From Oscillospiraceae bacterium (GTDB lineage: Bacteria; Bacillota; Clostridia; Oscillospirales; Oscillospiraceae): DNA of 64,000 nucleotides. Location: NCBI GenBank assembly GCA_015067885.1, contig SVLO01000004.1, positions 62,001 through 126,000 of the forward strand, in the 5' to 3' direction. A program made the position numbers and the translations under genes. The notes beneath the pieces were generated by a model. It saw only the letters and a list, made by a program, of their open reading frames with translations, was not told the DNA's origin and did no database searches. Shown here in pieces: positions 21,892 to 23,291 of this stretch; the first letter of the stretch is position 1, and every line of letters starts with the position of its first letter.

Positions 21892-22048
21892 CACAGGTAA
21901 ACCCCTTTTCGATGTTGTGACCATAAAATACCATATTTTGGAAATCGCTTTCCGGCGTATTCGGTCGAGAAATTCAAAAAAGTTCAAAAAGTCTTGGCAT
22001 TTCAAAGAAAAACACCGCACCCTGGGGTGCGGTGCCGAAAGCAGAGGG

Positions 22049-22552
22049 TTAAAATCGTTCTGCCAATAACTGGGTCATCAATTGGCGCAGAGGGCAGAAC
22101 AGAGCCAAGGCAAGGGCGAAGTTCGCCCCACAGTGGATCAGGTCAAAGGGGATACCGGACAGCCACCAGCTCAGGGCGAAGCCGGGGCCGCCGGACAACA
22201 GGCAAACGGGGGTGAACAGCCCGCCGAACAGCAGACCGAAGCCACCGGACAGCAGCGCCCAGCCGAGCGGGGATCTCATGTTTCGCAGCAGCCATGCAGT
22301 CGCGGCCAAAATGAGCCAGACATATAGATAACCCACAGACCAAATACCGATACCGTAGACCAAAAGTTCCAAAATAACATAAATATAGATGGGAAACAGA
22401 CACTTTTTGCCCAAAGTAACGGCATAGACCATAACGAGCAGAGAAACCGGCTCGATATTGGGCAGGGCCATCATAGCTACCTTAGCGGCAAAGGTCAGAC
22501 CGCCCAGCACGCCGAACAAAGCCACCTGGGTGGCAACGCGCCGCTTATCCAA
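22049..22552 (-). CDS. ECF transporter S-component-like membrane protein, B12-regulated
   Basis: A 167-residue, very hydrophobic protein with about five or six membrane segments. The start KRRVATQVALFGVLGGLTFAAK and size fit ECF-type S components, which bind a vitamin and pair with a shared EcfA-A'-T module; that module is not in this window. The TTG at 22550-22552 overlaps the stop region of the upstream DUF4430 gene by 8 bp; no better start or ribosome site was found, so the N-terminus is uncertain. The shared cobalamin riboswitch suggests a corrinoid ligand. Confidence 0.75.
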   Translation of the reverse strand: MDKRRVATQVALFGVLGGLTFAAKVAMMALPNIEPVSLLVMVYAVTLGKKCLFPIYIYVILELLVYGIGIWSVGYLYVWLILAATAWLLRNMRSPLGWALLSGGFGLLFGGLFTPVCLLSGGPGFALSWWLSGIPFDLIHCGANFALALALFCPLRQLMTQLLAERF

Positions 22553-22940
22553 GGGTGTAGACCAGGGAGAATTGATCCCCGTCCTCCAGCGTGGTGGTGT
22601 CGATGCCCTGCGTTGCGTACAATTCGCCCTCATAAAGAGCCCAATACGCACCATTTGTGGCATAATCCGCAACTTCTCCGTCCACTTCCTTGATGTAAAG
22701 GCCGTAGGCGCCCTGCTCGCCTTTTACAAGGCCCTCCTTCAGCAGCAGGGGGCCGAGGTACTGTTCGTGGGTTTCGTAGCGGAAGGCTTTTTCGCTCTTG
22801 TCGGCGTGGACGACCACCACTTCGATGGCCTTTTTGCCCTGGGTCGGCGTGGGCCGGGTAACCCGGTACAGGCCGAACAGCAGGGCGGCAGCGATCAGCA
22901 GAGCTGCGAGGGCGAGTGTTAGTTTGGTGCTTCTTTTCAT
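22545..22940 (-). CDS. Membrane-anchored DUF4430 protein under a cobalamin riboswitch
   Basis: A 131-residue protein with a basic start, one hydrophobic segment (about 7-25) and an extracellular domain (about 36-131) of DUF4430 type. That family is related to the C-terminal domain of transcobalamin and intrinsic factor. Visible blocks are EVVVVHADKSEKAFRYETHE, ADYATNGAYWALYEGE and the C-terminal LEDGDQFSLVYTLG, the family ending. There is no lipobox Cys, so it is held by a signal anchor or released by cleavage. GGAGG precedes the ATG. Overlaps the S-component-like gene. A surface corrinoid-capture role is inferred. Confidence 0.85.
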   Translation of the reverse strand: MKRSTKLTLALAALLIAAALLFGLYRVTRPTPTQGKKAIEVVVVHADKSEKAFRYETHEQYLGPLLLKEGLVKGEQGAYGLYIKEVDGEVADYATNGAYWALYEGELYATQGIDTTTLEDGDQFSLVYTLG

Positions 22941-22959
22941 AATTTCCTCCTTCGCGTGC

Positions 22960-22986
22960 AAAAAAACGGCGCCCCAAAGGGCGCCG
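22960..22986 (-). terminator. Expression-platform terminator of the cobalamin riboswitch
   Basis: On the minus strand CGGCGCCC AAAG-type loop GGGCGCCG is followed by TTTTTTT, just 20 bp before the DUF4430 start codon. It is the probable switching terminator. Confidence 0.88.
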
Positions 22987-23054
22987 CAGCCGTTTTTCCG
23001 CACGCAAAATAATCCCAAACCCTGTTGCTCGCAGGGGTGGGGACAGACACTGCT

Positions 23055-23256
23055 CCGTAGGTCTTCTGACTTGCGACTTGGACAAATGTCCGCCGTCCCG
23101 CCTTCCCGGAGAGGCCTCCAGTGACCGGCTTTCGCCATGGGACGGCTACAGTCGCTTACAGCGGCGGTACCGTTGGGGATTTGCACCCCATTGTCTTGTT
23201 CAGCCTGTGCGGTGCATTGCCCCGGACAGGCCACGAAGCAGGTATTTGGTTGTCAG
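23055..23256 (-). promoter_or_regulatory. Cobalamin riboswitch
   Basis: Read on the minus strand this segment shows the conserved cobalamin aptamer blocks: GGGGTGCAAATCCCC, CCGCTGTAAGCG (plus 23153-23164), GCCGGTCACTGG, CCGGGAAGG and GTCAGAAGACCT (plus 23059-23070). It heads the DUF4430/S-component operon and precedes an intrinsic terminator, consistent with shut-off when cobalamin is bound. Confidence 0.96.
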
Positions 23257-23291
23257 GTCCAGTATAGCACAGACGGCGGAGAAATGCAAAG

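Follow-up and report, generated by a model that had tools for sequence, protein, structure and literature searches.

A DUF4430 gene and a CbrT-like ECF S-component gene paired under a cobalamin riboswitch in an Oscillospiraceae genome

Finding B12 transport systems in gut genomes has been called an open problem (PMC6593275). The closest described counterpart of the locus reported here is CbrT of L. delbrueckii, the S component of the ECF-CbrT complex solved as 6FNP, which transports cobalamin and cobinamide. Affinities of CbrT are given as 9.2 nM for cobalamin and 36 nM for cobinamide, and the purified ECF-CbrT complex transported Cbl, for which its affinity was about 9 nM (PMC5997447). The gene order in that organism is nrdJ-cbrS-cbrT-pduO; in the text of the paper cbrS occurs a single time, within this gene order, and the prediction of CbrT is credited to Rodionov 2009 (PMC5997447). 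Judging from its place in the order, cbrS would encode a DUF4430 protein. For L. rhamnosus, PMC9963975 lists K8Q211 as ‘Additional lipoprotein component of putative cobalamin ECF transporter’, a name that stems from a proteomics table and not from a functional test, and also has a DUF4430 protein, LGG_02295, beside rtpR.

A second set of relatives is found among the cobalamin carriers of animals. Crystals of the free beta domain of human TC contain it with CNCbl and with cobinamide bound (PMC5599065). A paper on rat TC states that the beta domain is where the ligand attaches first, and that some organisms have carriers that consist of a beta domain only (PMC11107200).

We analysed a 64 kb stretch of Oscillospiraceae DNA (the window) that carries two genes, P0001 and P0002, coding for a DUF4430 protein and a CbrT-like membrane protein. 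As in the L. delbrueckii cbrS-cbrT system (PMC5997447), a CbrT-family S component follows a partner gene, and an ECF motor and B12-linked neighbours belong to the picture; like K8Q211 (PMC9963975), P0001 would be an extracytoplasmic protein assigned to a cobalamin ECF transporter. Unlike the L. delbrueckii genes, the pair stands as a unit of two under a cobalamin riboswitch, with neither nrdJ nor pduO adjoining. The initial annotation had called such a pair functionally new or little described, which was overstated, as the cbrS-cbrT order (PMC5997447) and the Lactobacillus lipoprotein name (PMC9963975) are both in print. The pair is better seen as a well-supported member of a kind already known, functionally unexplored as far as the open-access literature searched shows; no work on what DUF4430 does together with an ECF transporter was found there.

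Our preferred reading, to which we give a probability of roughly 0.6, is that the two genes form a B12 import module of the cbrS-cbrT type, repressed by corrinoid, in which P0001 captures corrinoid and passes it to CbrT-type P0002. We infer the direction of the riboswitch response: at low cell corrinoid the unit would be transcribed, and at high corrinoid the riboswitch would let the terminator form and turn the unit off. P0001, which by its predicted topology would sit outside the membrane, would bind corrinoid in its beta-domain cleft and, presumably through physical interaction, deliver it to outward-facing P0002; this hand-over is the least supported step and about an even bet. P0002 would then bind cobalamin or cobinamide in the membrane, and a shared EcfA-EcfA-EcfT motor, whose genes lie on a different contig, would energise import. 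By analogy, P0001 most likely takes the place of the substrate-binding lipoprotein in a classical ABC importer. In BtuCDF this would be the place of BtuF, capture of corrinoid outside and its delivery; no relation between BtuF and P0001 was seen.

Layout of the unit and genome context

The unit lies on the minus strand and comprises the following features (window coordinates).

23261..23290, minus strand: sigma-70-like promoter match (consensus scan only; TTTGCA-18-TATACT, with TG before the second hexamer)
23039..23248, minus strand: cobalamin riboswitch aptamer, RF00174 (covariance model, 72 bits, E 8.6e-16)
22966..22987, minus strand: terminator-like hairpin in the interval between aptamer and first gene (consensus scan and fold; T tail)
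22545..22940, minus strand: P0001, DUF4430 protein, 131 aa (Pfam DUF4430, PDB 3u7z and family profile)
22049..22552, minus strand: P0002, CbrT-like ECF S component, 167 aa, TTG start (PDB 6fnp)
22011..22036, minus strand: second terminator-like stem, closing the unit after the P0002 gene (consensus scan and fold)

The initial annotation had read a cobalamin riboswitch and a terminator ahead of two overlapping genes of 131 and 167 aa, and each of these elements was recovered. The 72 bits of the riboswitch compare with a gathering threshold of 31.5, and the match is the sole one above gathering to any Rfam family in the 64 kb window, as well as the only cobalamin riboswitch found in the genome. 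A terminator-like stem with a T tail (22987-22966) stands before the genes, and the P0001 and P0002 genes share 8 nt. Consensus scans over 1.6 kb gave six terminator-like sites against a shuffle mean of 2.4, and two promoter-like sites against 0.6. The hairpin at 22966-22987 is likely the expression platform of the riboswitch. Judged from sequence, the promoter-like site, riboswitch, hairpin, two genes and end hairpin make up a complete small minus-strand transcription unit, flanked by genes that we read, from their frames, as thiolase-type and Noc/ParB-type.

The genome assembly measures 1.93 Mb in 43 contigs and is 87% complete, so that gene absences are provisional. In keeping with the suggestion of a shared ECF motor encoded elsewhere, a single CbiQ/EcfT-family gene was detected (E 2.7e-54) on contig C22, which is not the contig of the pair; it is preceded by two frames that we read by eye as ABC ATPases, one of them cut by the end of the locus. 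A search for btuFCD had also been proposed at the outset; the BtuC family (FecCD) gave no match in the 87%-complete genome, with 13 of 14 control genomes positive. Likewise, the 87%-complete genome gave no match to CbiC (7/14 controls positive) or, unlike L. delbrueckii with its pduO, to the PduO-type adenosyltransferase family Cob_adeno_trans (9/14 controls positive). One strong B12-binding-domain protein is encoded by an 829-aa frame that we read as MetH-like, and one further match fell below the cut-off. A corrinoid consumer for which neither a maker nor a classical importer was detected would need something like the P0001/P0002 pair.

The two proteins

P0001 matches Pfam DUF4430 (PF14478) with 25.5 bits, above the cut-off of 23.8, and has a single hydrophobic segment at residues 3-30 without a lipobox, in line with the signal-anchored 131-aa DUF4430 protein of the initial annotation; this form of anchoring is a further difference from the L. 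delbrueckii system. It is predicted to consist of an N-terminal membrane anchor (about residues 3-30) and an extracytoplasmic beta-domain homologue (about residues 35-131). A simple lipobox pattern was present in 14 of 42 paired relatives of P0001 (41 from the family survey described below, plus locus L002) and in none of the others, two of which were judged on incomplete sequence. Lipobox and hydrophobic-segment forms would both fit one extracytoplasmic, membrane-held role.

Searched against the PDB, the P0001 domain matched 3u7z (E 4.7e-18), its closest solved structure, which bears the name ‘putative metal binding protein’, and as a single sequence P0001 found no vertebrate carrier there. 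A family profile was built from 56 of 59 DUF4430 domain rows, omitting the DUF4358 fusions L112 and L122 and the most divergent row, L126. This profile matches human haptocorrin (Transcobalamin-1, 4kki; sequence E-value 9e-5, domain E-value 1.9e-4) over 53 profile positions aligned to residues 378-429 in the C-terminal domain; the next matches are unrelated proteins at E 0.06 and weaker. The family-invariant G88 and W100 of P0001 and the near-invariant G80 are all retained in haptocorrin. The proposed kinship of DUF4430 with the C-terminal domain of transcobalamin thus holds at the level of sequence. P0001 resembles the beta domain of transcobalamin, haptocorrin and intrinsic factor in this profile homology and in the invariant G and W that are kept; unlike the animal carriers it is bacterial, has no alpha domain (its 131 aa comprise an anchor and one domain), is predicted to be membrane-anchored, and is paired with a membrane transporter. 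An AlphaFold2 model of P0001, computed from three sequences only, had a mean pLDDT of 49, too low for structural comparison. P0001 is a probable CbrS-type protein.

P0002 had one match only in the PDB, chain A of 6fnp (E 1.6e-8). A profile of the P0002 family, built from 44 of 45 S rows with L111 omitted (cut by a contig end), matched the same chain with E 3.3e-25; its other matches up to E 10 were two dehydrogenases at E 1.3 and 1.7. The alignment has eight invariant columns, of which seven are identical in CbrT (G67, W71, G106, G110, D137, H140 and N144), while the eighth, W79 in the P0002 family, is Y in CbrT. The S component at locus L134, which comes from a different family within the phylum, also matches 6fnp chain A (E 1.5e-20). 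Where the initial annotation had seen a general resemblance to ECF S components and had proposed comparison with known ones, CbrT was the sole S component matched in the PDB, and the resemblance is specifically to it.

Pfam and NCBIfam gave no match to P0002 up to E 1, nor any to the other 43 rows of the alignment, and the S-component call for P0002 therefore comes from CbrT homology alone. The length and strong hydrophobicity of the protein fit the six-helix S-component fold. Its AlphaFold2 model, from two sequences only, had a mean pLDDT of 50, and a PDB fold search with the model returned no meaningful match. P0002 is very probably a CbrT-type S component.

Conservation of the pair and its links to B12

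A contig search yielded three relatives of P0001. L002, from a goat-caecum MAG, has the riboswitch (67.6 bits), the DUF4430 gene and a TTG-started S frame, its proteins being 73% and 87% identical to those of the window. L003 has a DUF4430 gene whose product is 36% identical to P0001, with neither an S neighbour nor a cobalamin riboswitch found at the locus, and L004 shows 33% identity to P0001 over part of its length.

We surveyed 150 genomes of the same family, 71 of which had a P0002 match at E 0.001, and recovered 44 free-standing CbrT-like genes (E <= 7.7e-12). DUF4430 lies directly upstream on the same strand in 42 of the 44, with -5 to +88 nt between match edges; for the other two, no DUF4430 was found in the surrounding stretch, even by full-sensitivity search. 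Counted by genome, 42 have both genes, two the S gene only, 14 DUF4430 only, and 92 neither (Fisher p 1.4e-22 for co-occurrence, with genomes counted without kinship correction). P0002 matches at E 3.8e-10 and weaker in this survey belonged to ORFs between 270 and 1,199 aa long and were excluded from the 44. Large frames with S-component-like matches were frequent, as in L127:1081-3894, an ABC-ABC-S frame of 938 aa with the S-component-like domain C-terminal, and L128:820-2139, a 440-aa frame with such a domain at the C-terminus behind an unassigned N-terminal part.

Across 398 genomes of the phylum we detected 13 DUF4430/S pairs in 9 families, the window's own counted. The 11 best S matches (E <= 3.3e-22, the window's included) all adjoin DUF4430, and two weaker pairs were found besides. 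At a threshold of 1e-6, 99 of the 398 genomes had an S match, with an adjacent DUF4430 match (1e-5) in 13. The remaining 86 had no adjacent DUF4430 at 1e-5, a level at which weaker relatives may be missed; we read these 86 matches as mostly other S-component families. On the sequence evidence gathered, DUF4430/CbrT-like pairs are common. Neither of two same-genus genomes (G039 and G128) matches either gene, so not all members of the genus carry the pair. Neighbour genes vary among the inspected loci, and the pair itself is therefore what is kept.

Divergence of P0001-type and P0002-type proteins is correlated (r 0.61 over 43 pairs, against a maximum of 0.19 in 1000 permutations), which is not strong evidence because it is indistinguishable from shared species history. 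Together with the 8-nt gene overlap, this correlation would fit a physical complex, shared descent explaining it equally well, in which P0002 is the B12 S component and P0001 an accessory that does not bind corrinoid, such as a lid, a wall anchor, or a protein that helps CbrT to fold or dock. The in vitro activity of CbrT together with the ECF module (PMC5997447) also suits this alternative. Indeed, as purified ECF-CbrT binds and transports its substrate and cbrS is named just once in the text of that paper (PMC5997447), the partner seems not strictly needed; CbrT alone binds with nanomolar affinity, so P0001 may matter only at very low concentrations, for passage through the wall, or for certain cobamides. 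Against a purely accessory role, the sole solved relative of known ligand that the DUF4430 profile reaches is a corrinoid carrier, and the beta domain of animal carriers is said to bind ligand first (PMC11107200). We regard such a role as rather unlikely and prefer capture of corrinoid by P0001.

Riboswitches tie many of the pairs to B12. A cobalamin-clan riboswitch above gathering lies upstream of 18 of the 42 family pairs (window's included), one of the 18 being AdoCbl-II. The other 24 pairs have none above threshold, a few of them lying at contig ends, and a search of 19 of these up to E 0.5 gave three weak cobalamin-clan hits. In the phylum survey, 5 of 12 pairs (the window's left out) have a riboswitch upstream. 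In one of the five, at L178, a 167-aa ORF lies between riboswitch and DUF4430.

Ten neighbour proteins from nine loci were inspected and showed no B12 link except for the genes at L134 and L136. The L134 pair is followed by genes for a biotin carrier and the beta subunit of a Na+-decarboxylase (OAD_beta), which would fit methylmalonyl-CoA metabolism. The gene directly after the L136 pair codes for a cobalamin adenosyltransferase (E 2.2e-61), which mirrors the position of pduO behind cbrT in L. delbrueckii (PMC5997447). This arrangement speaks against the pair serving a corrinoid-related ligand other than complete cobamides, such as cobinamide, a lower-ligand base or cobalt. So do the homology of P0002 to a binder of cobalamin and cobinamide, with no other S component matched, and a genome with a MetH-like consumer in which no CbiC was found. 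Such a ligand would agree with the riboswitch, which reports only corrinoid control of the unit, and with the uptake of cobinamide by CbrT (PMC5997447); we consider it decidedly unlikely and retain import of B12 as the function of the unit.

DUF4430 outside the CbrT pairing

DUF4430 is not confined to the pairing with CbrT, since the family survey holds 15 DUF4430 places without a CbrT-like neighbour, in two of which it is fused to DUF4358. In both fusions (L112:1546-2958 and L122:1408-2661) DUF4430 stands behind DUF4358, and L122 also has a copper amine oxidase N-terminal domain. At three of the 15 (L115, L116 and L124), DUF4430 lies directly under a cobalamin riboswitch without an adjoining CbrT-like gene. 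Another S-component-like frame lies 3 kb off on the opposite strand at L115.

A different arrangement was found in family f87. Four of its genomes have a DUF4430 match, all four stretches carry an AdoCbl-II riboswitch, and none of the four had a CbrT-like match in the survey. At these loci (L163-L166, in G336, G281, G361 and G434, respectively) DUF4430 is adjoined, in either order, by another kind of membrane protein, about 160 aa long. This protein belongs to no Pfam or NCBIfam family and matched no S component in the PDB, where the best match of a four-row profile was Frizzled-1 (E 0.023). Profile comparison with the CbrT-like family gave a probability of 82.7% over 146 columns, with an E-value of 9.5e-6 that refers to that single comparison. 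These results hint, weakly, that the f87 protein may be a very distant S component. If so, there is more than one form in which DUF4430 has been joined with a corrinoid S component, which supports a working partnership.

The places without a CbrT-like neighbour, three of them under riboswitches, would suit DUF4430 as a surface or metal-binding domain of general use that is carried along in the operon and acts alone, for instance by storing corrinoid or metal, and the name of 3u7z, ‘putative metal binding protein’, points the same way. This is countered by the 42 of 44 CbrT-like genes that adjoin DUF4430, and by the f87 membrane protein, perhaps a distant S component, that adjoins it under AdoCbl-II riboswitches in four genomes. 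We consider independent action highly improbable, the least probable of the readings weighed here, and favour a P0001 that works with P0002.

A broader proposal is more tentative, with a chance that we put a little short of even: the CbrT-type system would be an ECF transporter with a tethered beta-domain capture subunit, which also occurs beside the distant S-like protein of f87, and the beta domain would be an old bacterial carrier from which the two-domain carriers of animals came later. The DUF4430/CbrT pair is of good interest for vitamin transport; should the DUF4430 partner bind corrinoid and feed CbrT, the two genes would provide an easy marker for B12 transport in gut genomes, and bacteria would offer a way to test where the intrinsic-factor fold came from.

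Several loci showed further peculiarities. Each of two S-component matches, G474:C53:5674-6186 and G392:C7:3377-3871, contains one TGA. Two DUF4430 matches fall in a single 1238-aa frame at G520:C100:26641-27471, and at L165 DUF4430 stands on both sides of the f87 membrane protein. At L117:2154-3541, three cobalamin riboswitch matches lie within 1.4 kb on one strand, with DUF4430 nearby on the other.
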